Assembly (NCBI GenBank): GCA_030407315.1
Contig: JALQPE010001778.1
Coordinates: 42,103 to 106,102 of the forward strand
Direction of reading: 5' to 3'
Source of the DNA: Asparagopsis taxiformis
Taxonomy: Eukaryota; Rhodophyta; Florideophyceae; Bonnemaisoniales; Bonnemaisoniaceae
DNA length: 64,000 nucleotides
In this document: piece by piece, positions 31,747 through 64,000 of the stretch
Layout of the letters: the number at the start of each line of letters is the position of its first letter
Position numbering within the stretch: the stretch's first letter is position 1
Program-made: the position numbers and the translations under genes
The notes under the pieces: generated by a model
What the model saw: the letters and a program-made list of their open reading frames with translations, nothing else
Told to the model about the DNA's origin: nothing
The model's database searches: none

Positions 31747-31769
31747 CTACGGTGTTGAAAAGGGGGCCT

Positions 31770-31960: not shown

Positions 31961-32125
31961 ATTAATGATTTATTCAATAGTTGGATATGATGTAATTTAC
32001 TGTACTGGGCAGTGTTGGCGGATAGTGTTTTGTATTGGCCAAGGCAACATGGCCGGATAGTGAAATACGCTGCCTGGGACAATAGATGGAACCAACACGG
32101 TGCACTGTCCTGGGCAGTACCTGGA

Positions 32126-39547: not shown

Positions 39548-42500
39548 ATGGGAGACAATAGTATCATGAATACTACAGTGGAGAAGAGCAATTCTCCTTC
39601 TGCTGAAGAGAAAAGCATCACTATTGCTCAGTACAGCTCTTCTAAAGTGCAAGTTGATCCTCGCAAAGTGAAATTTCCGACAGTGACCTCCCGTTTGGTG
39701 CGACCGGGTCGTGTAAACGAACTGGCCAGCATTTTCATGGATAGAGGTTTCTCTACCACTGGAACTATGATTACAGTCTGCAAAATGGAAGAGAACGAAG
39801 GAGACGAGTTTTACTGCATCGATGGCTCTCATCGCATAGCTGCTCTGCAACTATGCCTGGAGAAGTACTCAGGAAAGAACAGGGATTCCTTGGAATTGGT
39901 TTGGGTACAACAGTTGATTGCGCCGAACGGGCGTCTAATTTTCGATGCGCTGGAGGTTCTGAAACTGTCTCTCGAAGCCAATATACAAACTCACGATGTC
40001 GCTTCTGTGAGCATTGCAGACAATGTCTGTGCGGTCATAGAGTTTCTCAGGTTTTCCAACCAGATGGATCTTCCTGTTGTCCGGCTTATTCCTATTCTGA
40101 AAGAAGTGAGCTATATTCTGCCGTCCGACAGGAACCGTTCGGAGAACTCGTATAGGCAGTACATCAACATTGCGAAGGGGTTCAATCGCACAGACAGCGT
40201 TGCTTTCGTGTACTGGAGCTCTATCCCTAGCGTTTACAATGCTTTGGATAGGAACAGAGAAATCGAGGATGCAAGAACCGAGGGAAGAGATCCGGACTTT
40301 TCTCGAATTGACTCTGCCGATATGTACGGGTGCGTGCTCGATCTTGTCAATAACGCAATATTCCGCAATGGCACGGACGGACGAGGGACGCGCGATAAGG
40401 AGTGGTTCCAGTGGTTTGTGCTCGAGATGACAGCGTCGTGGACAAGGATGAGGAGGAAGAGAGGACTTGTCAGAAATATCGGAAGCGGAAGTCCGTTCAC
40501 GATGCGCACTTGGCTACTGGCTCTGTTGGCCATCTATGATGTGGCAGAGGTCGTCCGCAAATGGTTGAACTCTGCAACGATGGAGGAATTCGTGCGAACG
40601 GATTTGGCAGCAGAAAACGCGAAGGAGGTCGGGGATAATGATCATCGCATTGGAGAGCGCATTGTATTCGTCCTTGTCGACTTTCATGACGACGTGGTAG
40701 ACAGTAGCAGTCTGAGAACCAAGAACGGGATGTTTACAAACAGTTTTTACGACAAACTGGAATATGCTACCGGGACAAAGGCAATGCAGGAGACGAAAGC
40801 GGAGGAGGAGAGGGAACGGAATCGCATGACCCCCGGAGAAATAGAAAAAGCACTTGTTGCTGGCGCCAAAGCAGAAGACGAAGAAGCACCTACTGCCGCA
40901 GAACAGGGAAATAATTCTACAGAGAAGGAAACGGTGGAAACTTCTGGTCCTGTTCAAGCAGAAGAAGGAGTATCTGCCGAAGCCCAAGTAGAGCAGGAAG
41001 TTTCTGCTGTTGTGGAGGAAGAACAGGAAATTACTCCAAATGTGGTGGCTGAAGAAGTGATTCCTGCTGTCGCGACGAAAGCAATAGAAGAGGCACCTCT
41101 GAGCACCCCGAAAGAAGCAGAAGACCGTCCTGCCGCAGCAAAAGAGGGAGGACAGGAACGTCCTGCCACGCGTCTTGCAGCAGCTGAGAAGAGGGAAGCA
41201 GAACGTCTTGCTGTTCTCCAAAAAGAACAGGAACGTCTTTCAGCTTCAAGGGCAGAGCGGGAAAGTCGTGCCAGGGATAATTCGCCGGGAAGGATTGTCA
41301 GAGAAGATCTTCCTCAGGGAAGGAAACAAAGCGGCGATACGCAAAGTCTGGATATCAACTTGGACAATAGTGGTCGCATGGACATAGACACGCCTGGACA
41401 ACAAGCTGGAGATGCGCAGAACCGCTCTGTGATATTGAAACTTCGAATCAGGACACCAGAAACTAACAGCACTAGCCCGGCAGAAGCGGACAAGGAGAAT
41501 TCGGGAAGAAGCAGGAGTTCTGGTGGAAGCGGCGATGAAAACGAGTCCAGGTTGCATAAGAAGCGAAGAAGGGAAGATACTAGCGCGAAGTTTTCTGAGC
41601 CCAATACGCCGGATGACAACATTGAGATTGGGCCTCCCCGGGAAAAGAAGAGTAGAGTCAATGCAAGAAAACGAACGACTGGAGAAGAAGCACCACTCTT
41701 CACTGAAGAGCAAGAAAACTCCCTTCCAGACCGCACATTCGCAGAGGAGATACCTGAGAAGCTGCCTTTATGCGTTCCTTCCAACTCGAGAATGAAGTAT
41801 TATATCACAGAAGAAGACATTGATACAATCCGGACGGAGACAATGGAAGCAGCAGCAGGCTACTCTACTTTGGTATGTCCCCTCGGTTCTTGTGAAAGCC
41901 AACAATACTTCAGCTACCAGAGAAGAATGATCGACGAGCTTGGTTACGTGGTGTTGCAAGACATTTTCTCTTCTACTACAGTGGGAGCAGCTACGCACGA
42001 GTTATTCACACAGATGGCCAGCGCATTCCAAGGTACTACAAGTGGCTCAAGTGCAAGTCAGAAGAACCCGTGGAAACCACTTCGACCGAAAGACAGCACT
42101 GGTGTATTCAAGACGGACCGGAAAAGCATCTGCGATGACCTTGAGCAAGAAAGCGCGCGGCAGTACAGGAACAAGCTGATTCTGGAGCTAGGTAAGGCGA
42201 TTTGTGCGGAGAACCTGAAGCTCGGGTTTGGAAGAGAAGAAGCGGTGGTCTTTCCAGAAACGGGTCTTCGTCTGATTTTGACCGCAGAAGGTAGTCAGGA
42301 GCAACTTATGCATACCGATGTTCCCGTCCGTGAGGGAACTGGAACTGGTCCTCTCAACTCGCCATCATATTTCATGATGGCTGCTGGTGCGGATGGGTTC
42401 ATCATTCGTATCGCCAAGTTCAGCCATGTGTGCCTAAGTCATCCAGCGAAAGACAAGTACCGCGTGCCAGTGACGAACGTGCGCATCCCACCGTATTCCC

Positions 42501-42670
42501 TGCTTGTATGCCGAACGGACGTGTATCACGGAGGAATGGGATTCGCAGAGGGTCGTTCTTCGGTGAGGTACCAGCATCCTATCCGGTCCCATCTATCACT
42601 GCGAACTTCCAGGGAGAAGTTGCTACAGCCTCCCTTCAATGTCAACTACTGGGAGCGTTTAGATATCTGA
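39548..42670 (+). CDS. ParB-like domain fused to a 2OG-Fe(II) dioxygenase, intact
   Basis: This 1040-residue protein has three parts. Residues ~35-110 form a ParB/sulfiredoxin-like domain: SRLVRPGRVNELASIF, then the signature YCIDGSHRIAALQ. A helical region extends to ~residue 415, followed by a long Glu/Ala/Lys-rich linker with nuclear-localisation-type basic runs (KKRRRED, REKKSRVNARKR). The C-terminal ~280 residues look like a phytanoyl-CoA-dioxygenase-type 2OG oxygenase: DELGYVVLQDIFSSTTV, H-x-D in LMHTDVPV (~920), a distal His in CRTDVYHGGMGF (~995), and RYQHPIRSHL with the 2OG-binding Arg candidate. A DNA or chromatin oxidation role is inferred from the partner domain and the company, not proven. 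A damaged relative lies at 44201-47709. Confidence 0.75.
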   Translation: MGDNSIMNTTVEKSNSPSAEEKSITIAQYSSSKVQVDPRKVKFPTVTSRLVRPGRVNELASIFMDRGFSTTGTMITVCKMEENEGDEFYCIDGSHRIAALQLCLEKYSGKNRDSLELVWVQQLIAPNGRLIFDALEVLKLSLEANIQTHDVASVSIADNVCAVIEFLRFSNQMDLPVVRLIPILKEVSYILPSDRNRSENSYRQYINIAKGFNRTDSVAFVYWSSIPSVYNALDRNREIEDARTEGRDPDFSRIDSADMYGCVLDLVNNAIFRNGTDGRGTRDKEWFQWFVLEMTASWTRMRRKRGLVRNIGSGSPFTMRTWLLALLAIYDVAEVVRKWLNSATMEEFVRTDLAAENAKEVGDNDHRIGERIVFVLVDFHDDVVDSSSLRTKNGMFTNSFYDKLEYATGTKAMQETKAEEERERNRMTPGEIEKALVAGAKAEDEEAPTAAEQGNNSTEKETVETSGPVQAEEGVSAEAQVEQEVSAVVEEEQEITPNVVAEEVIPAVATKAIEEAPLSTPKEAEDRPAAAKEGGQERPATRLAAAEKREAERLAVLQKEQERLSASRAERESRARDNSPGRIVREDLPQGRKQSGDTQSLDINLDNSGRMDIDTPGQQAGDAQNRSVILKLRIRTPETNSTSPAEADKENSGRSRSSGGSGDENESRLHKKRRREDTSAKFSEPNTPDDNIEIGPPREKKSRVNARKRTTGEEAPLFTEEQENSLPDRTFAEEIPEKLPLCVPSNSRMKYYITEEDIDTIRTETMEAAAGYSTLVCPLGSCESQQYFSYQRRMIDELGYVVLQDIFSSTTVGAATHELFTQMASAFQGTTSGSSASQKNPWKPLRPKDSTGVFKTDRKSICDDLEQESARQYRNKLILELGKAICAENLKLGFGREEAVVFPETGLRLILTAEGSQEQLMHTDVPVREGTGTGPLNSPSYFMMAAGADGFIIRIAKFSHVCLSHPAKDKYRVPVTNVRIPPYSLLVCRTDVYHGGMGFAEGRSSVRYQHPIRSHLSLRTSREKLLQPPFNVNYWERLDI

Positions 42671-42892
42671 TGAAATTAGTTCTTAATAGCATTCTATGGC
42701 AGGCATCAAGGCCGCCTTCAAGTAAACGATGAAAGTTAGGCTAGTACATGACGTTTGCGTATGTAGACGGGTCAGGAGATATACAATACTCAATTTAATA
42801 TGAGAAGGGGAGGAAACTATGGTGGGCACTACTAGAATAGAACAAGGTAATATCGCAGTCGTCTTTGGTTGCAACATTGAGGTGAGGAAGGC

Positions 42893-43126
42893 TTACAGAT
42901 GATGCATTTTCGCTGGGGTGCTGACAGCAAAGTCATCGTTACGATGACTTTGCTGTAAGAAATCAAATCATTACAGCGGCCACAATTTTTTACCGGGTAA
43001 AAAATTCTTGCTGATTTTTTACCCGGTAAAATTTTCTCACCACTGTAATCAAACCTTTCCTTACAGCAAAGTCATCGTAACGATGACTTTGCTGTAAGCA
43101 TCCCGGGTAAACGGCTTCGGCTGTAA
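42893..43126. repeat. Hairpin element B, MITE-like
   Basis: This is bounded by TTACAG and CTGTAA and contains two copies of the AGCAAAGTCATCG hairpin and the ACCGGGTAAA palindrome. The right end GGTAAACGGCTTCGGCTGTAA is the reverse complement of the left end of element D (48185). It follows the stop of the intact ParB-dioxygenase gene by 220 bp. Confidence 0.8.
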
Positions 43127-43668
43127 GCGGTTGGGAGTTTCGTCCGTCTCCCACCCTGGGAAGGGTGAGAAGGGAAGTGTGGAGCCGGGAACATCGTACA
43201 ACGATGGTTTGGACGGCTGTTGACGGCTCTGGGGAGCACTCTGCGTCGTGCAAGCCTGGTTTGCGCTGGCTGCACTACCTGGTATTGAACGGTTCTGTGC
43301 GCAAAGTTTACTCATGAAGGAGGTAGGGTGTTGTGTACCACACCAACCATAGTTACTAACATTTGCAGTGTACTCTAGTGATGTAATTATTATTCTAGTT
43401 TCTAACTATACAATGATATTAAGTAAGTCAGATGTGCACAGAGCATGGTCTAAGCCTAGCACGGTAGAGAAAGATGGAAGAAAGATTGAAGGGTAGGCAT
43501 GCAGAAGTATGAAGGCAGCAGTATGTGTAGACTATGGCAGTGGTAAGAAAATATTTCATGCACCAAAGGGTGGGCAGAGTGACATTAGAGACGTGGTGTG
43601 TAGGGGGAAGGTAGGTGGAGATGATGAAGGAGGACAACAGAAATGAGAGCGAGGGTGAGACCAACGGC
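43127..43668. other. Spacer with an inverted copy of the element D flank
   Basis: There is no gene here. The first ~130 bp match, in inverted orientation, DNA just left of 48185 (for example GGGAGTTTCGTCC at 43134-43146 against GGACGAAACTCCC at 48166-48178), so homology extends beyond the TTACAG/CTGTAA ends. Open minus-strand frames here are not protein-like. Confidence 0.55.
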
Positions 43669-43876
43669 TTACAGATGGAGCAGTTTACCAGGGGATGCTT
43701 ACAGCAAAGTCATCGTTACGATGACTTTGCTGTAAGGAAAGGTTCATTACAGTGCCATGATTTCTTTACCCGGTAAAAAAATTCCTGGCCTCTGTAATGA
43801 AAACGTTTCCTTACAGCAAAGTCATCGTAACGATGGCTTTGCTGTAAGGATCCTTGGTAAACTGCCTGAGCTGTAA
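43669..43876. repeat. Hairpin element C, MITE-like
   Basis: This 208-bp element runs from TTACAG to CTGTAA with inverted ends (GCAGTTTACCAGGGGATG against GGATCCTTGGTAAACTGC). It contains two hairpin copies flanking an ACCCGGTAAA palindrome. It is the smallest complete-looking member and precedes the second ParB-dioxygenase copy. Confidence 0.82.
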
Positions 43877-44200
43877 TTGTCGTACAACGAAAAGTGATGT
43901 GGAAGGTTCGGATTGGTCAACCGCTGAATATCATTACCAGGGTGTATACTAATAGGAATATGTCAGTTCTCTAAGTTTCGCCTATCTTACTCAGCTTACG
44001 CAGCAAAACAGCTTGTCGTTCAGATCTTCTTCTCTCTTTCTCAATCTTTCACTCTTCGTTTGTCAATCACTCATCAAAACAATGGCTCAACAATCCCCCA
44101 ACGCTTTCGACCGCCAGGTGCGCTCTGCCGCCGCCGCCGTGACAACGATTCTCCCACTCCTTCTCCCTCTCCTTCTCCTTCTCTGGCCCCCCCTGTCCCC

Positions 44201-47200
44201 ATGGACGTTTGCGAAGCTGCTGCAGCGCTGACCCAGCTCAGCCCAGCACCTAAGCCCGTCCCCTCCCCCCCTTCCGCTTCCGATCCCGCGGTTGTCCCGA
44301 CAATCGACGCTGGCGTTCCCGCAACTCCGCTTCCGGCTCAATCTGCCGAAGCGGCGCCAGCCGTCGAGGGATCTGGTGCTCCTCTGCCTAGCTCGCCTGC
44401 TCCGGACATGATCATCGCGTCCGGCAGCGACTTGGCAGAGGATGCGGAGAAGGTCGATGATCACAACGCTCGTGACATCGTACCGAACAAGCCTCTCCGC
44501 AGCACCAGGCTGGCCTACCCTGGCACAGTGCCCATCCCGGTGGATGTGGACTACGACATAAGTCCGGAGAGCTGCCGAAACATTCCAGTCTTCATTTCCC
44601 CTCTGGATGTTTCTCCTCCGGCAGTCGTGTCCAGGGTGGTCAGGCCGCATCGCGTTGATGAGTTGAAGAAAACGTTTCTCACTCAAGGATTTTCCGTGAT
44701 TGCTTCACGCGTGTCCGTCTGCGAGGTGATTGATTCCAATGCAAAAGTACGACTGCAATATGTCGATGGATCTCACCGAGTGACCGCGTTGAAGGCCATT
44801 CTCGAGTCGGCTGGACCTGCTCCTGCGAAGGACAGTCCAGAATGGGAGGAGTTTGTCAGTTCAGACATTTACCGTCGATTTGGAACTATTCCAGTCGACT
44901 TTCTCCTCCCACCGACTCGGCTTGGCCGGGATGTCTTCTGCTCCGAAGAAGTACTCCCGCTTTCACGGCTGATGAACTTCCACACCCACAATGTCAGCGA
45001 GGTAACAGTTGCTGACATGTGTGCTCTGTGATGGAGTTCATCAATATCCACCGCCTGGGAAAGAAGAAGATCGAGCCGACCGTTCAATACATCAAAGAAC
45101 GGAAAGCGCTGAGCTGGATTCGTCCGAGACAGCTCATGCGCTATGTCTCGATCGCGCGAGGGTTCAAGACCATTGAAAGCCCTGCTTTCAAATACTGGTC
45201 GAGCATCCCGAACAGGCCGGAGTTCGTTCAATTTTCTTCGACGGAGGATCTGGCTGGGTGTACGGTGAACTTGTTGTTCAATGGGTCGTTCAGGAGTGCG
45301 CCGGACGTCCAAAAGTGTTTCATCCTTGAGATGACGGCGCGCTACACTTGTAGCCGTCGGTCGGCCGGGCTGAAACCGTACTCGGTTGGTACCATTGGGC
45401 AGGAATGGATTGCTGGTTTGTTGGAAATCTTCGGGTACGTGAAGGAGGTGGCCGAGTATTGGAACGTTTCGGATGTGATGAGGATGCTGGATGGCTCAAT
45501 TCCCAGCGTGGGTGACCCGAGCAAGAGCTTCGACATTCGCTCGCGCGTTGTCGAAGTTCTTGCTCAGATGGTCCCCAAGAAGGGGTGCTGGGCAGACTTC
45601 CGTCCCAAGGAAGGCCCCCCCGATGGTTACAAGTCGGAGAACATTTTTCCCGTAAGAAGTCTGTCTTCGGGAAGGACGCCAGGAAAATGCTCCTGCGCGT
45701 CACTGGGTACCGCGACATGATTGCGGAAACGCTTTCACGCGATGTACCCAGACATCCCACATGCTGCGCTCCCAGCCACATGTGGTGATGATGCCCCCAT
45801 CCCTTCCTCTTCCAATTCCTTGCCCATCCCTTCATCCTCCATCCCTTTGCCCCCACCACCTCAACTGGAATCTTCCAGCGATTCCGAGGTTGCCCTGTTC
45901 CTGTCTCTACCCCTGCCGTGTCGGCATCCTCCCCTGCGGTGACCCCGGTCAAGCCGACTGCGCGTGGTCCCCAGGATGGCAGCGAACGCTCTGGTCCAGT
46001 TTCCCACGCCGGACTGGTACCCCCAACCGTCCTGTCCAAGCCGCGCAGGAGCAGGTCTCACCGGCTTCGCAGCCTGAGCCTGCGACTCCGGCTGCCGAGC
46101 AGCACCCTGCTGCTCCGGCCCCCGCTGTCGAAGCTTCCCGTTCTGCATCTGCTAGCAGTTCGGGAAGCTCCAGCGATGACAGTTTCGTCCCTTCACCATC
46201 CGGTGGGGTTGGACAGAAGACGGTTGCGAGGATTTCGACGGAGGGCCCTACTCCCGAGAATGTGGTCGAGGGCAGCAGTGCGAAGGGCGGTGCAGATCCT
46301 GACGGGGATGTTATTGAAGTCAGTGATTCTGCACCGCCCGGAGTGGAAACTTCTGGGAGGAAAGTGATGCCCAGAAGGAGTACCCGCCTGCAAGCGAGTC
46401 GTTCCGGTCGTGGTGGAACGGCGGGTGGTGCTGTGGAGGTCGTCGAGCTGGAGAGCGCCCCCGAGGATGCGGGTGAAAACTCCATCCTCGGGAAGCGTAA
46501 CTTGGAAGCCGCTTCTGCGACGCCCGAGCCTTCTACCAAAAAGAGAAGGCTCGGTGAGACTTCATCAAAGTCGTCGTCAAAGAAATCCAAGTCGGCTTCC
46601 CGAGGTCGCTCTCGGGAGCCGGTTCTCCAGTTCGACGACGCCCAGGAGAATCCCATTCCCGACAGTATCGTCGATGAGAATGTGGCCGCCGTTCTCCCCA
46701 GCGCAATTGCGTCTGGCAGCCGGATGAAGTACTATATGGAAAGTACGACGGTGGAGACGGTTCGGGCGGAAATGAGGGCGGCAGCATTCCAGGTAGCTGC
46801 ATCGCCGGGAGCCGAGGAAAAGGTGGTGGAACAGTACTTGCGGTGAAGCGGGCGTTGCTGGAGAACTTGGGGGTTATTGTGTTGGAACGCTGTTGGAATC
46901 GTCCACGGCTGGGAGTGCGACGCATGAGCTGTTCGGTCACTTCGCTAGGCAGTTCCCGCTGGTTGAGGAGGTTGAAAAACCCTCCCAGCAGTCTGATTCT
47001 AACGATGACGACAGGGAGCCACAGGACGAGCCGCCAGCTTTCGCAAAGCCCGGCTTCGATCCTTCGCCGTGGCAGTTCATCCACAACGTGGGTGATGCGC
47101 AGGCCGCATCGATGGTGGTCGTGGGCGCCTCTCTCTGCCACGGCGTGAGTTGTGCGACAAGTTGGAGGAGGAAAATTTGGATATGTACAAGAACAAGTTG

Positions 47201-47709
47201 GTGGCAGAGCTTGCTCTTGGTGTTTGTGCGGAGTTCTTGAAGCTGGGAATGGAGGGTGATGATCCTGTCTTCTTCCCGAAGACAGGATTGCGGCTGCTTC
47301 TTACAGCAGATGGGGCTGCGGACCAGGATGGGCACACGGACTTCAAGGTATCAACGAGTCGTGTTGCAGGACCTACCGAGTCTCCATCATATTTCATGAT
47401 GTCGAGCGGAGCAGATGGATTTCTATAGTAGCTGCCCCTTATAGTCATGTATGCCTAGCCAATCCGGACGCCGATATGTGGAAGGTTCCCATTCATAGGC
47501 TTTATGTGCCACCCTATTCCGTATTGGTTGGTCGCGGTGACCTTTACCATTACGGGGTCGGCTTCAAGCGCGGAGATATGCCTGCGGGCGAAAAGCTAGT
47601 CTATGGCCTGCCCACGCGCGGCCACATCTACTTGAAGACGGAGAAGGACGTCCTCACGGACCACATCCACACCGTCGAATATTACAAGTACGATAGGAGC
47701 AATAGATAG
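44201..47709 (+). pseudogene. Second ParB-dioxygenase copy, frame-broken
   Basis: This has the same architecture as 39548-42670. A Pro/Ala-rich N-terminus is followed by the ParB-like part (SRVVRPHRVDELKKTF, YVDGSHRVTALKAIL), which stops at 45031. The match to the intact copy continues in another frame from ~45019 (EFINIHRL ... YVSIARGF), and breaks again near 45650. A Ser/Glu/Arg linker leads to RMKYYMESTTVETV, then further frame changes between ~46846 and 47150. The oxygenase follows: GHTDFK (H-x-D) at ~47330, a break at 47428, and LYHYGVGF before the stop. At least five frame changes are needed. The first is explained by one missing G near 45019. The copy is well diverged from the intact one, so it is an old paralogue, not a fresh duplicate. 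Unrecognised introns could explain one or two breaks. Confidence 0.75.
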
Positions 47710-48184: not shown

Positions 48185-48763
48185 TTACAGCCGAAGCCGT
48201 TTACCAGGGTTCCTTACAGCAAAGTCATCGTTACGATGACTTTGCTGTAAGAAAAGAAAACATTACAGCAGCCACGATTTCTTTACCGGGTAAAAAAATT
48301 GTGGCCGCTGTAATGATTTGCTTTCTTACAGCAAAGTCATCGTAACGATGACTTTGCTGTAAGGAACCGTTCCTTGCAGGGCCAAAGAATTTTTACCGGG
48401 TAAAAAATCAGCAAGAATTTTTACCGGGTAAAAAATTGTGGCCGCTGTAATGATTTGCTTTCTTACAGCAAAGTCATCGTAACGATGACTTTGCTGTAAG
48501 GAACCGTTTCCTTTGCAGTGGCCAAAGAATTTTTAACGGGTAAAAATCAGCAAGATTTTACCGGGTAAAAAATTGTGGCCGCTGTAATGATTTGCGTTCT
48601 TACAGCAAAGTCATCGTACGATGACTTTGCTGTAAGGAACCGTTTCCTTGCAGTGGCCAAGAATTTTTACCGGGTAAAAATTCAGCAAGAATTTTACCGG
48701 TAAAAATTGTGGCCGCTGTAATGATTTGCTGTCAGCATCCCCGGTAAACGGCCCGCACTGTAA
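48185..48763. repeat. Hairpin element D, MITE-like, amplified inside
   Basis: This 579-bp element runs from TTACAG to CTGTAA with inverted ends (CCGTTTACCAGGG against CCCCGGTAAACGG). It contains four tandem ~135-bp modules, each with the AGCAAAGTCATCG hairpin, GGCCAAAGAATTTTTACC, and ACCGGGTAAA palindromes. Small indels distinguish modules, pointing to internal expansion. Confidence 0.85.
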
Positions 48764-49039: not shown

Positions 49040-49890
49040 TCAGTTAGCTGGCCAATATTTTCTACCATAGTCAGCAAATATCTCCTCATCAGCTTCAACG
49101 TCTCTGGTCAGAACGACCTTGACAGCATGGGGATTCTTGATATTTGAAGCAAAGTCCGGTTGTCTATGACATCGCCTTGTCGAAACTCGGCTGACTGTGT
49201 TCGACTCACCTCGGTCGCTTTCTCCGTTCCGTCAATGACCCGACAATCATTGAGGTAGCTGGTACAACTATAGACCGCTGGAACGAGCCAAACTTCCGAA
49301 CAGGTGCACCCCTCCCTATGTACGTGGTTTCCAATTCCATGTTGTAGTCCTGGAACCTCTCTCTGTGCACCCAAATCCTTCCGGGCCGTACATCACTGAT
49401 CTCTGCGGTTCCGAGTCTCGAATCTTCGCATAGAAAATCGTCCCGTTGTACCAGCCAATGACCGTCCCCTTCTTCAGTTTCTTCGCCGCGAATACGCCAA
49501 ACCCACCACCTCTTACCTCCGATTGCGAAACATAGACAGCGTAGAATGCGGCATCGGCAGCCAGAATCGCGTCCGGGTCTATGCTCCAAAACGAGTGCAT
49601 GTCCTCGGCCGGCCACTGGTCCATAGGCACCCCGCTCAATCTGTGAAGCATAGACCCGTCCTTCTTCATTGACGCAACGAACACAAGCAGATGGTTCGGC
49701 AATGCTGTCACAGCAGGGAATCCTTCTGGTGCATCTGAGATGTGCTTCTGACGAAGCCTTGGAGCTTTTCCTGTGACCGGTACCGACTCGTCCCCAAGAA
49801 TACTCTCCACCTCACGCTGCAAGATCCCCCCATATCGCCCGGCTTTCACCTCACTGACGAAAGCATGCAGTATCCACTCCTGCGATGCAT
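49040..49890 (-). pseudogene. SET-domain segment of the fusion gene
   Basis: SET-domain features appear in order across three frames and one intron: GGGFGVFAAKKLKKGTVIGW (SET motif I, G-G-FA---I--G--I--Y), a middle region with ETTYIGRG, then YLNDCR in place of the usual NHS/C, and after the intron NPHAVKVVLTRDVEADEE and IFADYGRKYW (the catalytic Tyr motif and following aromatic). SET enzymes methylate lysines on histones or other proteins. The NDCR variant occurs, from memory, in some protist SET families. Confidence 0.68.
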
Positions 49891-50808
49891 CGTGGCACCT
49901 TTTTCCTTCTCACACCCAATGAACCGACGATACGTACCATCCCTCAACGTCATACACGCTATGGCTGTGCTGTACGTTCCCGAGAAGAAATCCATCACGA
50001 TATCGTTCTGCTTCGAAAATCGTTCCAGAAGCTCACGAAGAGTGGTCAACGCCTTCTGCTCATGGCGCAGTCGGTTGTTCTGCCCATCGTATTGAGCTTC
50101 ACCAGCCGACAACCTCGGAACGTTGTCAATCGCGTTGGTGAACCCAGGGTACCTCGATATGTCGGATTGTGCAACCTGTAATCCACCATATCGTACGCAA
50201 ACATACCCTTCCCGCTTATACGCATGGATAACGAAATCGTGCATATTATGCAGTGTGCACGTTTTCGTCGATGGATTGGACGTAAAGCTGTGTGGTCGGC
50301 GAGATAGCACGACTGGAACACTGTCCACAATCATCTTGCCAGGCTCGGCATTTCTGATTGCATCCATCCATGCCACGAGTTGGCGCACGCTGGAATAGAT
50401 CAGAGCATGGCCGCCAGGCCGAAGAACTCGAACTATTTCACACGCAACACTCGCCAACTCTTCCGGCTCCAGAATATCGTACTCCGAGTTTTCTCTGCCG
50501 CCTTCCCGCCTCGTGTTGAATGGAGGATCAGTGAGCACAAGCTGAACACTGTCCTCCAACACGCCATCTTCCAGGAAACTAATTTTGTCCTCCACCTCTT
50601 TGGCTACGTCAGTGGCGTCACAATTCACAGTGTGAATGTAACGCCCCATCACAGCTTCCAGCTTGGTGACGTATTCTGGCTTGGTTTCCTTTCCGACGTC
50701 AACGAGCGGTGCTTCTGTAGGCGATACAGTGTCAACCTCCATAGCGTCATCCTCTTCCGCACCTTCTCTTGTTGCTGTTTCGCTAGCAACCGCCGCATTA
50801 TCGTCCTC
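49846..50808 (-). pseudogene. Beta-class N6-adenine/N4-cytosine DNA methyltransferase segment
   Basis: The segment shows catalytic motif IV LVLTDPPFNTR first. REVLRPGG-like IVRVLRPGGHALIY, a target-recognition stretch and then the SAM-binding motif I VMDFFSGTYSTAIACM with RRFIGCEKE follow. The order motif IV to motif I is the permutation of beta-class amino-methyltransferases (CcrM/HinfI/YhdJ type). DPPF favours exocyclic-amine methylation of adenine, or of cytosine N4. The usual FxGxGTT of motif I is FSGTYST, so activity is uncertain. The frame reads back through an acidic linker to the ParB segment. Confidence 0.78.
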
Positions 50809-52456
50809 TCCACCACCGCGCTACCAGCCTAGCCTTCTTCCTCTGTGGCTCCAGACTATCCTCTTCTATATCCTCGCTGCCATTGTTTGGCACTGCTGCG
50901 GATATTTCCATCTGCGCAGGTGCACCTTCAAGGATGCCAGGCTCGGGCGTATCCTCAAGACTGTGTAACTCATCCATGGTCAGAGGAAGCTTTCGTTGCT
51001 CTCGGGTTCGCAATAACCAAGCCTTCAGCCTCCTCTGACCATCCAGGGCATGAGACGTGTTCAACTTGGCTCGCATGAACGAGTTCAATCCGAACTTGTC
51101 AGGAGTGTCGAAAAGCAAGGCTCGAAGTCTCTGCATCAGCTGACCACGCTCGGCGAAAACATTCACCTCAGTGACACATTGGCGTATCGACAGCAGGAAG
51201 GCGCTTGTCAATGATCGCAGCCTTGCATCCACAGCCACTGGAAGGTCGGCACAGAACCCGTTTTCACTGTCTACAGTTTTCGGGACAATGGTCAGGTTTT
51301 TCCGATGCTCCTCGACCGCACAGCCATCAGACCGATTCGGGAGTGACCTGAAGCAAAGGCTCGCGGGATCGAATACCATGAACGGCCAGCACATCGATTC
51401 AACATCCTCATACCCCAACACTCTTGCCCCGGTATCCCATGCAGCTAACACACGGTCGACAACAAATCCAAGCTGGTTGGCTTGCGCACTGGATGTTGCA
51501 ATTCCAACCATTCCACCACCACCAATGGCCCCGGATGTGGCTCTGGCCCGCCTAGATGGCACACTGCCCATCTCCTTACTGCGAATAGCCAAGATACACT
51601 GGCACATCATAACCATCAGCCTCCTGAACCGCTTCTGGCTAGCCTGCAAAGAATCTTGCATGTCGGATGTAGCGCCGTCCAGAAAGTACCTGCTCGAAAG
51701 CAGTTCACGGTTCAGTGGAGAGGACAATTCTCCGCGGGGTGTCTTGCCAAACATTTCGACGGCACGAGAACTAGTCACCCCCACCTGTTTCGGAAACTCA
51801 ACCATCCTCGGAGAATCACCCATCTCTGCATTGAGTCCCCATGCATGACAAAACATTTGCCACAGACGCAAATCAATCGCACTCGAATCTTCTGCTCGGT
51901 GATACGGCCGAAGCACAGCCAGAATAGACATGCATGAGCTGTACTGCGGTTTACCACTCAGGCTTGAAGCAATTTGGCCGCTTGGATCGCAGGATTTGAT
52001 CCAGCCCAACACATCAGCCATCCTCACAGACGAAATGTGAGCGTACTTGTCCTTTCCGTTTTGGACCCAGTACTCGTCTCTGAGATCAACGGCGATCATC
52101 AGATACTCAACAAACATCATGTGCCTTTGCAGGCCTGCAATGTCGTTGGATGTCGTCGCTCTCACACGGTCCAGCACAACAGCAGTACTGCTGTTGGTGT
52201 CCGCCACGATAGACTCTTCTCGCATAGGAATCGTAACGCCAGGTGGAAAGACGCCCTTCTCCATTCCACGTACAATTGCCATGCAGCGGTGCGCTCCATC
52301 TAATATCTCCAGAACGCCTTCTCGAAACCTGCCAGTCACGGGATGAGCTGTGTCATAACCGCTGTTGCGAATGCTCTCCATGAGCGCTTCCACATGACTT
52401 CCATCAACATCGCGAATCGATACGAATTTGCTGACTTGATTGGGGTCGATGAACAA
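50798..52456 (-). pseudogene. ParB-like segment of the fusion gene
   Basis: This 552-codon frame begins FIDPNQVSKFVSIRDVDGSH and contains the ParB/Srx-type signature EILDGAHRCMAIVRGME, equivalent to the DGSHR-A motif of the two dioxygenase proteins. A helical region of ~300 residues and an acidic tail with a basic patch (EPQRKKARLVARWWRGR) follow. There is no ATG after the upstream TAG before the conserved region, so it is not an independent gene as it stands. Confidence 0.75.
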
Positions 52457-52501
52457 CCATCCGTCGTGCTATTCACCGTGATTGTGGAACGTTCCTTCCA
52501 T

Positions 52502-53016
52502 GGCGAACAAAGGTAGAGTTTTTAAGAAAGGAATAGTAGGTTGCTGCTTGACCAGGGTGGCGCAAAGCAGAAGTTGGTTGTTTAAAACAAAGTGTCAGCG
52601 AGTGGTAGCACTTCGGTGGCTGTTTCCTTTCCACCCCTGTCCGAACCTTTACAAGTTAACTATATCGACTGTTAGCTCAATAATCAATGTAATACTAAAG
52701 TAATACTCAAAATATTGTTTCCATGCAATTTATTGGGCCCCGTAACATCTCTAAACGTATCTTTGTAGTCCAATCGTATGCATCCGACATTCACTTCTAG
52801 AACGATTATTCACATCAAATTTTATGCTGCAATCAGTTCATGGCAGACATCATCCACACTGACGTGTCAATTTTGTCAATTGTCCATTCTATTTCTACAC
52901 CAGCTAAAACATCTCTTCTCGACCTTTCCAATCCTCCTAGTATATACTACTCTTTAGCAGAAGGTAACGGTTAGGCTTTCACTAATACAACAATTCTATT
53001 CCATAGCTATCCCAAC
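52502..53016. other. Intergenic region between divergent genes
   Basis: This 515-bp AT-rich gap separates the minus-strand fusion gene from the plus-strand gene starting at 53017. It presumably holds both promoters. No repeat is shared with the flanking transposons. Confidence 0.35.
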
Positions 53017-53133
53017 ATGCTTCCTCTCGCTCCAAACGACGTTATAGAAGTTCAATGGGAACTTCGGCCGTTTGGGAGGAAACGAAAAATTGTCTGGTGG
53101 TCTGCAATCGTCAAGGAAATTACTCAGGTCAAG
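53017..53133 (+). pseudogene. 5' part of a small gene split by the 10.5-kb transposon
   Basis: The ATG at 53017 opens 39 codons (LAPNDVIEVQWELRPFG, IVWWSAIVKEITQVK) that end exactly at the CAAG target duplication. The continuation is at 63630-63986 in the same frame, so the uninterrupted gene would encode about 157 residues. The VWWSAIV segment resembles the WW-A-V core of Tudor/Agenet-like domains, a weak resemblance. Inside the element the frame stops within 12 codons. Confidence 0.6.
53130..53133. other. Left target-site duplication, CAAG
   Basis: CAAG directly precedes the left inverted repeat and is matched by CAAG at 63626-63629 directly after the right one. Confidence 0.8.
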
Positions 53134-55097
53134 AACACGACTTCCGAGCTAATGAGAATAATTTCCTAAATTGAGTATCAATAAAATTTATTTTTAGCTC
53201 AGTCAGGGCATCAAGCGCTACTTCTGAGCTCCTCTACTACGCTACTTCTAGCAAAACGAGTCCTAACCCTTTTTAACGGAAGAAAACAGATCGCGTTGGA
53301 ACGTCCAAAATCTATGCATTCTTCCACTGAGATGTGAAGAGCATGACGATCAAGAATGTTAATAATTTAAATAATTCTCTGTTCTGTAGAATGTACATGT
53401 GCTGCTTGTGTCACAGGGTTAATCAATGCCTCTGACACCAGCATTTGAGGCCATTGGCCCCGCCGTTGTTTCGAAACGGTGTCTGGGATAATATTGGAAG
53501 ATAGGTAAATCTCAACTCATGAGTGATATCATTTACTCTATTACGTTATTATTCTGTCAGCCAATGGGTGCAGAACAGGATGGTGCACTTTAACGTGGAT
53601 CTTTCCACGTTTTTTCAAATAATTTCTGATTCTTCGTCCATTGCAACCAGATCATCCGCGAAATTAGATCATCAATCCCTGGACTTCAGGGCACAGTGAG
53701 AACAACTGCCAATACATATCATCTACGCTGTACTGAGTATCGAACACTGAACACCAGCGAAACTAAGTGAAGACGGCGTGCGTTGCTCGTAAGCTTGCTA
53801 GTCGATATTTCAGCACTTTTTGATGCAGTCAATACTACGCTGAAATCATCCAGCGAGCCAAATGGAATCGAAGCAAATTCAGCCCTGCCGTGTCGCTTGC
53901 TTCAAGATATGTAAGTTGCGAGTTATATCCATTTTCGCCCTTACAAGCCTTCAATCGTATTTACCATGGAATACACCCATTGATGAACACCTAGTTCTTC
54001 CCTCTTACGGATTTGCTCTGCACCGTGCCCATTCTTCAGTCACCAGTACTTTGCATTCATGGTTTCCAATTTCATGCCATGTATCAAGTGGCTTTCGAAA
54101 CATATCGGTTATCAGGGATACACGTGCACGAGACGCGTCTGGTGCTATTATACATAAGTGCACCTAGGATTATAGAACTGAAGTCAGGTCACTGTGCTAC
54201 TCCGCGAAAAAATGACAAAGTAACTGTGACTACCAATAGCGTATGACTGAAATTCTTCTAGTCCCTACGGAGGCTTCAGAACATTGCTGGTATCATCTGA
54301 ACGCAATTTTCACCTTAATGCGTGCTAAATCTGAGATTCCCAGCCGTTGTGTATTTCCACCAGATTGTCAGCGATTGAGCTGCACAAATCTGGGTACGGG
54401 AGGATCCTCAATGCTGCAGATTGCGAAATATAGATGAAGGCTGTCACATATGATGACCATATGCGCTTTGTACAGGGAGATAGAGAAATAATGTCATGTA
54501 TGTCAATTATTATGTGCGGAATCACAATTCTATGAACCCTCTATCATTCCCTGAGAAGTTCAATCAACAGGCTATTGGAATCATTCACAAACTGATGAGT
54601 ACATAACACCATCACTATTCCATCACAATCTACAGTGTTGCAGAGTTCGTAACTAACTCCTATTCATATATCACGTGCGACCGAATATAATCTGTCCTCC
54701 AAAGTGAAGTAAGAGAGCACTATCCGCTTCTCAGAAGTTCAGGTACACACTACGTGGCTGAAGGAGTGAGGGAGGATAGGATACTGGCCAATGAACAGAC
54801 GGATGAAGGGAGCAATGGGGTGGCTGTAGTAGACGTTGAACTTTGGATTTGAAATGCTCGACTCGACTGCACTCTGAGCTTACCATTACTGCTCCAAGCT
54901 AGATCTAATTTTCTTCTGAACGTCTACTGGAATCCTCTTGTCCTTTGTGAGGCGTGAAAATCTGGCTAGAACTGTGTTAACAGAAACATTGTCAGTCCAG
55001 ATGTTCCTTTCGGCTTGATAACCACTTACAAATGAGGCAGTGTACTTAGCCCTGAATATATCCTGAGCGAAGGCTGACCCAGCCCCACTCCTCCTAG
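53134..55097 (+). repeat. Left terminal inverted repeat (1.96 kb)
   Basis: This is the reverse complement of 61660-63625 with few substitutions and several single-base homopolymer indels. The inner ~200 bp contain, on the minus strand, the inverted copy of the transposase C-terminus (AFAQDIFRAKYTASFVSGYQ; LARFSRLTKDKRIPVDVQKK). It is in an intact frame here (54886-55097) but broken in the right arm. The rest shows no coding sequence. Confidence 0.9.
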
Positions 55098-55309
55098 AGA
55101 CTGAAGTAGCCGGATAGAAAAGTGAAGGGTTTGCTCGTGAGTTCATTTGCATAACATATGAATAACTACAGATCAGCAGCTCTAAATTAGATAACAATAT
55201 CTACAGTTCCGCAGAACTGCTCGCCGCAGCCTGGCAGTTGGAGGACAGGAGAGAAAGTTGGTAGTTGAAAAATTTGCGTGGAAGTTGTTTTGTGCTGAGA
55301 GAGAGGTTT

Positions 55310-58231
55310 TCACTGACTCAAGGAGACTGTTGGTTTTTCTAAGGGACCGATGGGAGCTTCATCGCTACCGGTGAAGGCTGCACTTTTTCCGGTGGATTGG
55401 TCCGGTAGAATTGGACCATGGAAATCGTCTTCGCCTTCAGATTCTTGTGAAGATCCACAATCCTCAGAGAGATTCTGTATTCCTCTCTTTTGCCCTCTCA
55501 CAGCTGTTTTATTATTGACAGAACAGTAGATATTCCTCGGGATCTTGTTGTTATTTCGCTTCGAACACTGGATCTTTGTTCTGATTGAGCTCTTGAAGCA
55601 ATTCTATCAAGGCGTTCGAGAGCAAGCTTGTAACACTTTGGGTCCTTCTCTACGACGACACACTTGCGACCAGTTGCAATACAAGCGATGGCAGTCGTCA
55701 TAGTTCCTGCGAATCCATCAAATACAAGTCCTCCGGGTGGACAGAAAGTACAAAGTATCTCGGCAAGAGCAGCACTGTTTTTCTCCTCCACTCGAACTGG
55801 ACTCCTCCCGACACACAATTTCCTCTGTCTACCTACTTTGTCAAGAACAGCAATTTTCGGGTGTGTGAACATGGAATTAGACTATATGGCGTTTTGAGAT
55901 CAGCACCAAATTTTCGTCATGGGGAGGAAGGTATCCCATACATGCAGGCTCGGCACAGTTCTGTGGGACGAGGAAGCTTTTGTTTCTTACCTGTTGAGAA
56001 GAATCCTTCACAAGCAAGTATGGGTAGTTCCATACGGCAAGGCCCGCTGCTTTTAGGGCATCCCACCATTTAGATAGCAATGCAAACGAAGTAAAGATCA
56101 GAAAATAAACCGCCTGGCTTCAGGCTTCTTCTGCAGAACCTGCCAAAACGAGCAATGGCCTCTTCGTCTATGAAATCGTTATAGAACCGACCGGTATTTG
56201 ACAAGTTACTCCCTTGAAGTGCATAAGGAGGGTCTGATAAGATGAAGTCAAAGAGATCTTGCTGCTCTCTATCCGATGAGCCGTATATGGATTGATCATA
56301 TTGTTCCCAAGTCATATCATATATATAATGATTATAATGGGAAACGCCAAATTTCTTGAGTGCGCTCACATTACTTGGGTTATCATTTTCTTCTGATCCA
56401 GTACAATCCTTCACTTGAGACGACATAGCTGCACCCTCCTCAGAGATTGAGACAATCGGGATGAAAGGTGACCCATTAGCTTCCTCAGTTGGGTTGCTGG
56501 AAACTTGATTATAGTCCACTCCTGCATTTGAAGAAGAATGGTTTTCTGGGGTAGAATTCTTCCCTGAACCGTCTCTGTTCTTCTCAATTTTCTCGAGATC
56601 ATCTGCATCATCCTCTCTTCCTTTTGATTCCGTTTGAAAGGACGGAGATTTATCAATACCTGTTTGAGGAGAGGAACTGAGTGCATTACTTTCTGCGTCA
56701 GTTTCCTCTCGAACAAATATGCCCTTAAAACGAGCCAAGTCCATTCCTGAAGTACTCGGGAAGTGTTGCTTGTATAAGTCCCAGAGAGGTTCTAGAATGT
56801 CCTGTGGATTGTTCATGTTGTTCTCTACATGCTCATCCAACCTGTTTGTCTGAAGAAGATTCAAACGGGCTGTTTCAAGTTCAGGAGGCCATTTTTTTCC
56901 TTTCCCTCCCAGAAATAGCTCGAACTTTTCTGCTTCTAGTCTAGCCGCTACAGCAGCTTTAAACTCCTTCTCGATAACTTTGTACGAGACAGGTTTGTAA
57001 TAGTTCAGAGAAGCGTGATATCTTGCTCTTCGCAGCGCATGAATTGCGTCCGTAGTATTCTTACAGCACATGAAAGATGTCGCTTGTTTGAGACTAGACG
57101 ATGAAAATATGTTTCGATAAATTCGACAATCTGGAGTGCTTCCATTTCGAGGTGACTTCTGATGGAATCCAGAAGCGATCTCGGGATGTTCAGAGTTGAC
57201 GATCGCTCCAATTTCTTCTAAAACCTCGTTAGGAAGTCGCAGAGCTGTCCTTGCCAGCTGAACTGTAGTCGCGCTCGACCACTTCTTTCCACCTGCAACC
57301 TTTCCTGCAACCTCCACAGCAGACGGCATTTGACCAGTACATGCTTCTATCTCTTTAGCCTCATCCTTAAATGCGCACAGAGTGTCATAGAAAGTGCAGG
57401 CCACAACGTAGTCATTCTTTTGCTTTTCGTTTGCATTGCGGGCATATGCCCTGAGGATTGACTTAGAAGCCGACTGTATAACCATCACAGTCCACTGGAA
57501 ACCTGCCCATCTATTCGGTGTGTCCTTCATCAATTCACTGATGGCCATATGACGGTGGGCACCGTCAATGATACCATACCAGACATCATGTTTCTTCACC
57601 ATCTCCTCAGCTTTCTTCCTTGCCTCGTTTACACTTAATCCATCAGCTAAGAAATTGCTTTCTAAGAAAGAATATGGAAACGATTCATAGACACCTTCTA
57701 GCCGGACAACAGATGGGAGACAACCTCCGGATGTGATTCCTTTTGTCATTCCATCATCTTCAAAGTGACCTGAGAAAGATTCCTTCAAACGTGAAACACC
57801 AGAAGGAGAAATGCTTCGAACCTTCGAGAATGGAATACATACATCAGGATCAAGCTTCATAATCTCTGCACCTTCTAGAAGATCACGAAACGCCTCTGTA
57901 ACCCCTTCAAATCCGTCGGCAATTGATTCAGAGTTATCTTGGAGTGATTGTGTGGGATAACCTCTCCCAGAAGGGACACTAGCTTCAACAGGTGATACTT
58001 TCCTGGATTCTCGCGTCAATCTTGATTTTGAATATGACTTCTTGGACGTTTAGTTCCCATTTCAAGAGGAACAGAGTTTGACCAGACTAGTCGCTCCTGG
58101 GCTTTGGTAATTCCCGCAAAGTAGTGACTGAAGATATCATTTAAAGGAAAGCAAGCGAGGGTTTCGTTTCGACCTACTTTGCACTGGTTATATTTTACGG
58201 ACACAAAGCTGGTATATGTTTCCGCATCGTC
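55310..58231 (-). pseudogene. ParB-like domain fused to beta-class DNA methyltransferase, frame-broken
   Basis: Reading down from ~58231, a possible intron acceptor (TTTGGTTGCAG) precedes an exon with ETYTSFVSVKYNQCK and LACFPLNDIFSHYF. A frame change near 58020 leads into the main 649-codon frame (58019-56070). It carries ParB signature WYGIIDGAHRHMAISELM, a helical region, a Ser/Glu-rich linker, then DFILSDPPYALQGS (motif IV) and RRSLKPGG. A one-T excess near 56120 shifts to YFLIFTSFALLSKWWDALK, and another shift near 55870 leads to the C-terminal PGGLVFDGFAGTMTTAIACI (motif I) and RKCVVVEKDPKCYKLALERL, ending in an acidic tail by 55310. Motif order IV-I marks the beta class, and DPPY indicates adenine-N6 or cytosine-N4 methylation. 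It is related in plan, not in detail, to the ParB-methyltransferase-SET gene at 49.0-52.5 kb. Confidence 0.75.
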
Positions 58232-59598
58232 CTGCAACCAAATGAAATAGGTGCTTCACGGACATGATGCTTAGTGATCGAGGTCTACTATGATTTCCTA
58301 GAGACAGGAGCTCACACAACTCCTACTCTCATTTCTGGTCAACCGCAACTTTTTTTAAATCCGTTCATGATGTATTGTCACTGTCATTGAACTTATTATG
58401 TTGACCAATGAGCTCGAGCATATCTGGCGGATAAAATTTCCAGATATACACATGCTCTACCGTGTAATGAAATTCTATCCCTGTAGAACGCTCTTATGAC
58501 TTGGAAAATGGTTTTGAAGCCAAAATGATAACACGTATTGTAAAATGAAGGCCTGTTTGGTGAACACGTCATTGAAATGTACAGTGAGTGGTACAGGCCA
58601 AAATTACGTCTTTTCAGCACATCCTGCCAGATGGCATGTTATACACACATATCTTTTCTCGTTTTCCGCTTCGACAGCCCTTGAAAGAATAGTATCCTGA
58701 CATTTACGTTACGGTGATGATGATACTGCTTCGCTCCGAAAAACTGTTTTAGTTCTGGTTTGATGAGAGAGTTGTAGAGAAGTGTAATTTCCTCCCAGCT
58801 GTTGACTGATATAATTGCTAGTTTCTCTGCTTAGGTAGGAGAGCCTTATTCAGTCCAGAACTCTTGGGGACGAAAGGGGTTTCGAATGCCACTACATCCC
58901 TGGATATCATAATCATCCTCTCTACGTCTCTGTAGACTTCAAGGAGGACATGTGAGGACGTTGAATGTGATCTATGATCACTGCGGTACGATTCGTACCG
59001 TTAAATGGTGGTCCTCCAGCGAGCCTCAACAATATCAATATCATTGAAAAGCTTTCATAACATCTCTTTCGAAACACATATATCCATAGGAATCTGATCC
59101 TATCTGTTACGAGAGCTGTTTAGAAAAAGTTTTACTCAAAATTTTTGTAAATCAGAAAAGCACCAAGTGACATAGGATCTCTCCAGCTATGGGTACAATA
59201 TCAGTATCATCATACAGCTTTTCAAATTACTGAGTGGAACAAGCTATCCAAGCAGTCACTTGACAGTTTGTGCCTTCTGGCCAATTTCAAAGAGACACAT
59301 CATAGATGATATCATATCATTGATGTGCACGTCTGACGTATGTCCTAACAGCGAAACATGACTCCGATTCATATCTGAGTCAGACCTTTTCCGAGACGTT
59401 CTGTAGAACTCCCAGAGTAAAGTGCAGGAGTGGGCATAGTGAAGCTGTATATGCTTCCAGTGCTGCGGAATGTAAGCAGAGCTCACATGACAGGAATGCT
59501 GCTCACAGGAGACACTCTGTTGATTCTGAGCCCTTGCTCGATATGGAATCTATTCCGATTTTCGGACTGAATATGGATGATGCCGAAGCCGCCCTATT
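58232..59598. other. Central region between the two divergent transposon genes
   Basis: This 1.4-kb AT-rich region has no protein-like frame. It probably contains the promoters, and perhaps first exons, of the ParB-methyltransferase and transposase genes. An open frame at 59534-59803 overlaps the transposase in another frame and is a shadow. Confidence 0.4.
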
Positions 59599-61870
59599 AT
59601 GTCAAAATGTAATGATGAGCATCTCTGTGAGGAGACCAATGGAATTATGGATCGTTGTCACCGAGGTAGAATTGCCATTGGGGAGCTTTGCCAACATCTC
59701 ACAGTTCCAAAAAAGAGGAAGTACGTTCATGTATCGCGAAACAAACGGAAAGATGAAGCCAAGTCAGACCTCAAGAAGAGAAGGGAAGAAATGGCGAAAG
59801 TAAGTGACATGAAAACTGTTTCTTGTTCTAAAGATGGGTGCTTCAAGAATGTTGAGCAGAGCTACCTTCACGCCCAGAAGTTGCGCATACTTCAAATGGA
59901 TTGTATTGGCAGGAAATCTGCACTCACCTCTATGTTCAACGGAACAAGTTTCGAGTTCAGCTCAAGAAAAGTTTGCGTTCAATTCCTCAACAAAGCGTTT
60001 GGATTTTCAAGACAGTTGCAGGCTTCTGTTAAGCGTCTCCCAAGTGCTGGAGCCTCATCCTCTCTACTGGCAATTCCAAGAATGAGGAGAGGAAAAAGCC
60101 AGAAGATGCATGTAATGGAGTTTTTACATCACGCTGCTGAATACAATGCAGATAAGATTCCCGACTCGAACGAAACCCATCTACCTCATCACCGAAAGCT
60201 GGATGTGTATATGGACTTTAGGAATGGTTTCCACGAGAGATCTTTAGACGGGGAAATAATACCACCAGCATCCTATTCATACTTCATTCGTGTCTGGAAC
60301 ATGTTTGCCAATCACATAAAGGTTCGAAAAGTGAGGCGATTTTCGAAATGCGACGAGTGCGAGTTCTTACGTTCTGAGCTGGAAACGGAGCAAACGAGCT
60401 TCGATCCGCTCCCGTTCTTCAGCGATACCGAGAGCACCACGATTTCATTGCCAGCGAGAGACTGGTATACTATTCAACAAGAACACGGGCAAGAAACAAT
60501 CCTTCTAAAATTCTCTCTGTCATTATTGATGGAGCAGATCAAAGCGCATTCGGGCTTCCACACTTTGTGGTCAACACTAAAGCAGAAAAAGGTCACTCTA
60601 TCAGAGTAAGAATGATTGGAGTTCTCGAACATGGTTCTGTAAACAAAGCGTCACTTTTCCTCATGACAGAAGAATTCGAAAGCGGCGCGAATCATGTGAT
60701 CGAAGCCATACACCGATTTTTATCGGATCGAGCCTCAGTAGGATTCTTACCTGATACGTTCCATATCCAGATGGATAACTGCACTCGAGAAAATAAGAAT
60801 CGGTTTACGCTTCTTATCTAGAGTATTTGTTATGATGGGAGTCTTTCTAGAGGTTAATGCATCGTTTTTACCAGTCGGTCACACGCACGAAGACATCGAT
60901 CAGATTCTCGAGAACTGCAATACACCTCCGGCACAGGAATGCGATTACGATGGAGGAACTCGCTGCAGAGCTGAGAAACGCGTACAACCAAAACCGAAAG
61001 TATCTCTGATGAGGCACGTAGCAAATTTTTCTGGCCTGTTGAATGAATCAAGAAGTTTAAGGAAAAACTTGTCCTCATTCTCTGCCTTCCGTTACTTCAA
61101 ATTCTCCAGGAGACCGGCAGTTTCTGGGAGTGGTCCATTCCCCTTCTCCACTTAAGTGGCGGTAAAGGTGAATCACAGTCAGTCTTGGGAGTTATTCTCC
61201 CCTCTCGTGACAGTATTCTCACTGGATTTCTTTGCTCATGTCCGAACCTTGCTAAGACACCACCAACACTTGTTCGATCTCCCCCAAACTTCCATGAAGT
61301 TACGAAACGTATCATTCAGTAGAGAGAATGGTTTCCAATCACTCCAAACTTACAAGTCTCATCTCTCTCAGAGATCAGATCTATAGGGATAGAGAGGAAG
61401 CAATTCACTGGGATCTCGAAAACTGTCCAGAGTTGAACGGCCGCCACAGAGAGGATCGGCTCAATTCGGATATGAAAGTGAAAAAGTGAGGAGGAATCAG
61501 AACAGTTCTATGATTATGAGTACGATGTTGGTGATTTTGTCGCTGTTAGAACAAACGATAGGAAATGTTCTTTCTGGATAGGTCAAGTCAAGGAAACTAC
61601 CAGAAATGGAGAGGGACTGGTAACCCTTGTGAAACTGCATTGGTACCAGACGTACAACCCTAGGAGGGGTGGGGCTGGGTCAGCCTTCGCTCAGGATATA
61701 TTCAGGGCTAAGTACACTGCCTCATTTGTAAGTGTGTTATCAAGCCGAAAGGAACATCTGGACTGACAATGTTTCTGTTAACACAGTTCTAGCCAGATTT
61801 TCACGCCTCACAAAGGACAAGAGGATTCCAGTAGACGTTCAGAAGAAAAATTAGATCTAGCTTGGAGCAG
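59599..61870 (+). pseudogene. DUF7869-type DDE transposase, frame-broken
   Basis: The 336-codon first frame (59599-60609) shows the N-terminal region of this group: VSCSKDGCFKNVEQSYLHAQ, SSRKVCVQFLNKAFGFS, LPHHRKLDVYMDFRNGF, and a zinc-type FSKCDECEFLRSEL. A frame change near 60495 leads to VIIDGADQSAFGLPHF (first Asp), a segment with IRVRMIGVLEHGSVNKA, and FHIQMDNCTRENKNRF (second Asp). Another near 60815 leads to FLPVGHTHEDIDQIL (third acidic region). A Tudor-like C-terminal domain at 61520-61740 (YDVGDFVAVRTND, SFWIGQVKETT) runs into the right inverted repeat. DGxDQ ... QMDN--ENKN ... GHTHEDIDQ is the hallmark of DUF7869 proteins, which I recall from many protist and animal repeats. Two or more single-base breaks leave it non-functional as read. 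Confidence 0.78.
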
Positions 61871-63625: not shown

Positions 63626-63629
63626 CAAG
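63626..63629. other. Right target-site duplication, CAAG
   Basis: CAAG directly follows the right inverted repeat and matches 53130-53133. Confidence 0.8.
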
Positions 63630-63986: not shown

Positions 63987-64000
63987 CCTCCTCTGCTCTG

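Follow-up and report, generated by a model that had tools for sequence, protein, structure and literature searches.

Proteins that join a ParB-like module to a DNA amino-methyltransferase have been described from algal transposons and from phages. According to the available text of one account, the Ectocarpus element Sola1-1_Ec32, a 21.5-kb Sola-1 element, carries an accessory protein of 1104 aa with a ParB-like module and an N4C/N6A DNA methyltransferase (MTase), and green and red algal cases of transposon proteins with ParB-like and MTase modules are cited there as well (PMC12477816). Phage proteins with a ParB-CTPase fold fused to an N6_N4 MTase are reported in the available parts of a second paper (PMC12704722), and the accessible portion of a third describes HarbingerS and MuDR transposons that carry SET genes (PMC12730594). 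For Chondrus crispus, the part of the source used here lists enlarged EnSpm/CACTA families whose elements span 16-20 kb and hold 4-5 ORFs (PMC6431247 citing Kojima 2013).

We analysed a 64,000-nucleotide stretch of the Asparagopsis taxiformis genome (contig JALQPE010001778.1; hereafter the window) that holds a gene, gene 3, with ParB-like, MTase and SET modules. With a ParB-like module and an N4/N6-MTase in one transposon gene, gene 3 fits the algal transposon ParB-MTase accessory proteins, and it resembles Sola1-1_Ec32 in placing these modules in a giant algal DNA transposon; unlike gene 3, the Ectocarpus protein is described in the available text without a SET domain and its element belongs to another superfamily, Sola-1 (PMC12477816). 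The phage proteins also set a ParB fold beside PF01555, but the terms 'SET domain', 'transposon' and 'alga' are absent from the main text of that paper (PMC12704722). The HarbingerS and MuDR genes share with gene 3 a transposon-borne SET methyltransferase, whereas a fusion to a DNA MTase or ParB-like module is not described in the accessible portion of the source (PMC12730594). Like the Chondrus families, the element studied here is a giant red-algal CACTA-type element with several ORFs, but no target-site duplication was found for it (a comparison of size, end type and ORF number). No ParB-MTase-SET protein is named in the titles and abstract openings of the partly accessible literature that we searched, a search that had Petroll 2025 and Iyer 2011 outside it; what may be new is the addition of SET and the presence of other ParB-like proteins alongside gene 3 in the same element.

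A giant element and its genes

Gene 3 is one of the genes of a giant DNA transposon of ~24.8 kb that occupies hundreds of places in the genome. Copy B (contig C390) measures 24,789 bp and carries six genes; copies A (C1734) and B are collinear from a common left end for ~21 kb, the length of A that was compared, and the right end is common to copy B and the window (Table 1). The element ends, CACTACGGTGTTG and CAACACCGTAGTG, are 13-bp termini of CACTA type. EnSpm/CACTA transposons have CACTA termini and a 3-bp target-site duplication. Because none of the three copies with both ends read (C390, C2503 and C1851) had a target-site duplication, we did not file the element as EnSpm; assembly chimerism or an unusual insertion may account for the missing duplication. 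The 200-base left end was 100% identical at the best 40 of 875 candidate places and right ends were mostly 97-98% identical, and such near-identical ends point to a recent spread of the element.

Table 1. Features of the window, with positions counted from its first letter
Feature	Position	Strand	Remark
Terminal inverted repeat CACTACGGTGTTG, 13 bp, one end of element	31745..31757	+	
Gene 6: 1288-aa ORF, candidate transposase, CHIC and H..E..H-type motifs	34326..38189	+	same length in C390
Intergenic inverted-repeat array	38306..38735		
Gene 5: 1078-aa ORF, ParB-like DGSHR domain and C-terminal HTD...H motif	39434..42667	+	same length in C390
Intergenic inverted-repeat arrays	42891..43877		42891-43230 and 43667-43877
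Gene 4, broken: ParB-like DGSHR protein	43928..47709	+	shares a related C-terminus with gene 5
Intergenic inverted-repeat array downstream of gene 3	48208..48730		137-bp units holding TTTACCGGGTAAA
Gene 3 (broken): fusion of ParB-like, DNA MTase and SET modules	49040..52501	-	ATG at 52501
Gene 3 SET domain, in pieces separated by frame breaks (window copy)	49064..49504	-	PF00856 pieces below cut-off
Gene 3 N6/N4 DNA MTase domain, DPPF before FSGTY (beta-class order)	49897..50547	-	PF01555 E 2e-15
Gene 3 N-terminal domain, predicted ParB/Srx fold	52187..52468	-	DGAHR..A signature
Gene 2, one end	52975..53134	+	interrupted by nested element, resumes 63625-64000
Nested element with own ParB-like and MTase gene	53134..63625		~970-bp terminal inverted repeats (98.7%)

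The near-palindrome TTTACCGGGTAAA was present seven times in copy B and was absent from 25.2 kb of its flanks, and GACAGTA, dense near the ends, occurred 27 times in the copy B element versus once in 25.2 kb of flanks. A 35-bp tandem repeat lies near one element end (window 32103-32587); copy B has fewer of its units than the window does. Near the end of one element copy (L051, 5274-9872) we also observed a retrotransposon ORF with reverse transcriptase, RNase H, integrase and chromodomain.

Gene 1 (526 aa in copy B) had no Pfam match in the 462 of 526 residues scanned, gene 2 (467 aa in copy B) had no Pfam match, and genes 5 and 6 had no PDB sequence match. In copy B gene 4 occupies two overlapping frames. 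The C-termini of genes 4 and 5 are related and hold conserved HTD...H motifs that are possibly 2OG-Fe(II) dioxygenase-like, an idea based on the motifs only, as the AF2 model of the gene 5 C-terminus gave a pLDDT of 31. The six ParB-like pieces that we compared were chosen by eye for the motif. Gene 6, our candidate transposase, had no Pfam match up to E 10; its CHIC and H..E..H-type motifs are collinear and similarly spaced in a Plavaka transposase of this genome, at a BLASTP E of at least 0.3.

The nested 10.5-kb element inserted in gene 2 is unrelated to the 24.8-kb element and no part of it. Its own gene for a ParB-like (DGAHR) and N6_N4 MTase protein is broken, and SET had no match in the pieces of the nested element that were scanned. 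A long plus-strand ORF also lies within it at 59581-60606.

Domains and relatives of gene 3

The original prediction held that the ParB-like, DNA MTase and SET modules lie head to tail on one strand, and this order was confirmed: all three are on the window's minus strand. Domain searches of the three segments gave a mixed picture: PF01555 matched in the window, PF00856 stayed below its cut-off there but matched in an intact copy, L046, and PF02195 (ParB_N) found nothing in the segments or in the intact copy. In L046 gene 3 forms a single frame of 1186 aa, or 1155 aa counted from the ATG, with PF01555 at E 2.4e-16 (60.8 bits against a cut-off of 26.7) and PF00856 at E 4.3e-6 (27.5 bits against 22.4). 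The N-terminal ~94 residues have a predicted fold like that of ParB/Noc/sulfiredoxin, with Foldseek E no better than 0.005, and we treat this domain as a predicted ParB/Srx fold. The middle region is predicted to be helical, mostly with low confidence. Across the genome, the sole Pfam ParB_N match found lies in another gene (C1526, 7582-7839; E 8.8e-8).

A public protein search with the gene 3 protein returned four proteins, P0001-P0004. P0001 is practically identical to it. P0002 (44% identical overall; 43% in an alignment that spans 99% of the query) and P0003 (31% overall; 38% in its best local alignment, which spans 46% of the query) have the three domains in the same order, with PF01555 and PF00856 both above cut-off, and P0004 lacks the ParB part and has an MTase with SET below cut-off (E 0.008). 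Adding P0005, from a second family of this genome considered below, the DNA MTase-SET pair is found in five diverged proteins, three of them with the ParB-like module ahead and all except P0004 with SET above the Pfam cut-off. Aligned to P0001, P0002 and P0003 cover 95 and 92 of 95 ParB residues, 249 and 247 of 250 MTase residues and 170 and 157 of 170 SET residues, respectively. Identities were 42 and 40% for ParB, 57 and 46% for MTase and 55 and 33% for SET against 36 and 20% for the middle region, so that each domain is better conserved than the middle region. A profile search built from five sequences recovered only P0001 and none of the other members.

We also considered whether the fusion as a whole came from a prokaryote or a phage, for which we found no support: the contig relatives match only within query residues 550-881, around the MTase. 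Seven weak relatives came from viral contigs and two from genome contigs, in scans that were seeded by two MTase peptides and are blind to others. While 39 phage records match P0001, none covers 80% of it, and the eight listed cover 20-21%.

The MTase family profile, compared with the PDB, matched DpnA, MboIIA, CcrM and RsrI and, judged by sequence, is nearest to adenine enzymes. In beta-class N6_N4 MTases motif IV (DPPY/F) precedes motif I (FxGxG). Motif I of P0001-P0005 reads FSGTY, FSGTF or FAGTF, with the second G absent, and the order of the motifs, IV before I, is that of the beta class.

Among four distinct intact copies compared pairwise (L033, L034, L037, which equals L045 at locus C1734, and L046), dN/dS was 0.035-0.10 and differences were mostly silent. 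For example, L045 and L046 differ at 16 nucleotides, 15 of them at third codon positions, and at 2 amino acids (dN 0.0010, dS 0.018). Over 30 distinct copies, chosen for their resemblance to the window's MTase piece, the normalised N/S ratio was 0.21 for variants in at least two copies and 0.62 for singletons. By domain the counts are small: shared variants in the MTase gave 0.24 versus 0.29 for singletons, and those in SET (4 nonsynonymous to 3 synonymous) gave 0.39 versus 0.48, so that the two classes hardly differ in either domain.

Possible roles of the gene 3 protein

At the level of sequence, intact copies of gene 3 hold a single frame that encodes three domains; the gene is present in hundreds of copies that differ with a bias towards silent sites, and distant relatives keep the domain order. 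The reading that we favour, and that we judge about evenly balanced between right and wrong, is that gene 3 serves the giant transposon as an accessory gene and encodes a modifier of the element's own DNA and chromatin. In this view the ParB/Srx-fold domain, possibly together with other ParB-like proteins of the element, would recognise or load on the element's repeat arrays, the beta-class MTase would put N6-methyladenine on nearby element DNA, and the SET domain would modify lysines, either on histones nearby or on a protein of the element. Together these activities would set up a state that permits the element to be transcribed or to transpose, and the benefit to the element would be anti-silencing. 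For the gene 3 protein we infer element targeting, adenine methylation, lysine methylation and the anti-silencing benefit.

SET domains are marked by an NHS cofactor motif and a C-terminal catalytic tyrosine (YG). The SET family profile of gene 3 matched EZH2, KMT5A and KMT2 in the PDB, and the canonical NHS motif is absent, with [LI]ND.R in its place in all four aligned family members. Because of the missing NHS motif, we filed gene 3 as a SET-domain protein and not as a lysine methyltransferase. We think it somewhat less likely than not that the SET domain has no catalytic activity and acts instead as a platform that binds histone tails or a cofactor, with the DNA MTase alone at work; the replacement of NHS and the small by-domain counts, which give few signs that SET is constrained, agree with this. 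However, the N-terminal GxG and the C-terminal tyrosine-glycine (Y166 G167, as DYG or, in P0005, HYG) are kept in four of four aligned members, and between P0001 and P0002 SET is conserved about as well as the MTase (55% versus 57%), though less so in P0003 (33% versus 46%).

Dam methylation regulates Tn10, and TnpA acts at subterminal sites of Spm. The gene 3 MTase could similarly mark element DNA to regulate the transposase or transposase binding sites and not chromatin as such, a role that we consider rather unlikely. The dense subterminal GACAGTA repeats, the intergenic inverted repeats and the adenine type of the MTase are all consistent with it, but it leaves the SET partner behind the MTase in P0001-P0005, above cut-off in four of five, unexplained. 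We give little credence to a more elaborate version of the favoured modifier of element DNA and chromatin, a self-targeted epigenetic kit in which one protein would read the inverted repeats with a ParB-type clamp and write both N6-methyladenine on DNA and methyl-lysine on chromatin, and two ParB-like/dioxygenase-type erasers would oppose or tune these marks.

Copies of gene 3 and a second MTase-SET family

We searched the 141.5-Mb genome (3156 contigs) with the window's MTase piece and scored the best 123 of 3370 protein-level candidates; in 60 of these 123 the reading frame stays open for 1155 aa or more. A motif-I 30-mer with up to two mismatches gave 413 genome matches (190 forward, 223 reverse), and its backward control gave none. 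With 123 scored copies and 413 matches, we rejected a single-copy host gene. With P0003 as the query, the ParB half and the MTase-SET half fell in open frames of 1161-1188 aa at all 39 places scored, the best 39 of 4096 candidates, at 29-30% identity to P0003 for the ParB half and 39-40% for the MTase-SET half. Scoring takes the best candidates first and so favours intact copies; frame lengths run from stop to stop, and domains were checked copy by copy only in L046 and the P0003-query places. On contig C469 of the same genome, which we took as plastid, lie 11 of the 13 phycobilisome-family matches, in keeping with a red alga.

The search for intact homologues with all three domains in one frame yielded L046, the 39 places scored with P0003 and the public relatives P0002 and P0003. 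A single polypeptide, as the original prediction had proposed, is borne out by these copies and by the order common to both relatives. Its reading of the locus missed the high-copy transposon nature of the gene, and the ParB-like and MTase part had, from the available text, already been reported (PMC12477816).

Compared with an intact copy, the window copy stops at codon 11, has seven frame-shifting indels and 16 mismatches over 3461 aligned bases, and is a decayed transposon gene. We think it very improbable that the frame breaks are assembly errors in a really intact gene: the differences are indel-rich, as that explanation would have it, but the additional stop at codon 11 and the 10.5-kb insertion that cuts the neighbouring gene 2 speak against it. 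That three separate tandem genes merely look fused is scarcely credible and was rejected, for although the window frames are broken, 60 of the 123 scored copies are open for at least 1155 aa, intact copies and the 39 P0003-scored places keep both halves in one frame, and the order stands within one protein in two public relatives.

The second family, that of P0005 (PF01555 3e-15, PF00856 1e-6), is like gene 3 in having MTase then SET in one long frame and in its high copy number. Unlike gene 3, its N-terminus lacks the ParB-like signature, and 39 of 139 scored places lie at most 15 kb from a scored Plavaka transposase, mostly ~5.1, 5.6 or 9.5 kb away. These 139 are the best 150 of 1661 candidates minus the ten strongest, which we took for SET genes of other kinds, and a single row that contained stops, with membership taken from scores and lengths; the Plavaka places are the best 123 of 1208 candidates. 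For gene 3, four of the 43 rows tried (the first 43 of the 123 scored) had a scored Plavaka match no more than 15 kb away. In the longest second-family copies read (L009-L014) the frames are 1081-1154 aa; at five of the six places a single frame holds both MTase and SET, and at L014 a short frame has the SET part alone. From these sequences, the DNA MTase-SET pair apparently sits in two different transposon families of this genome.

The MTase-SET pairing recurs in five diverged proteins, three of which have a ParB-like module, and apparently in two transposon families here. The hundreds of near-identical copies of gene 3 in one genome make its role directly testable with methylation-aware long reads. 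If active, the gene 3 protein would join bacterial-type DNA adenine methylation and eukaryotic-type lysine methylation in one polypeptide, addressed to mobile DNA.
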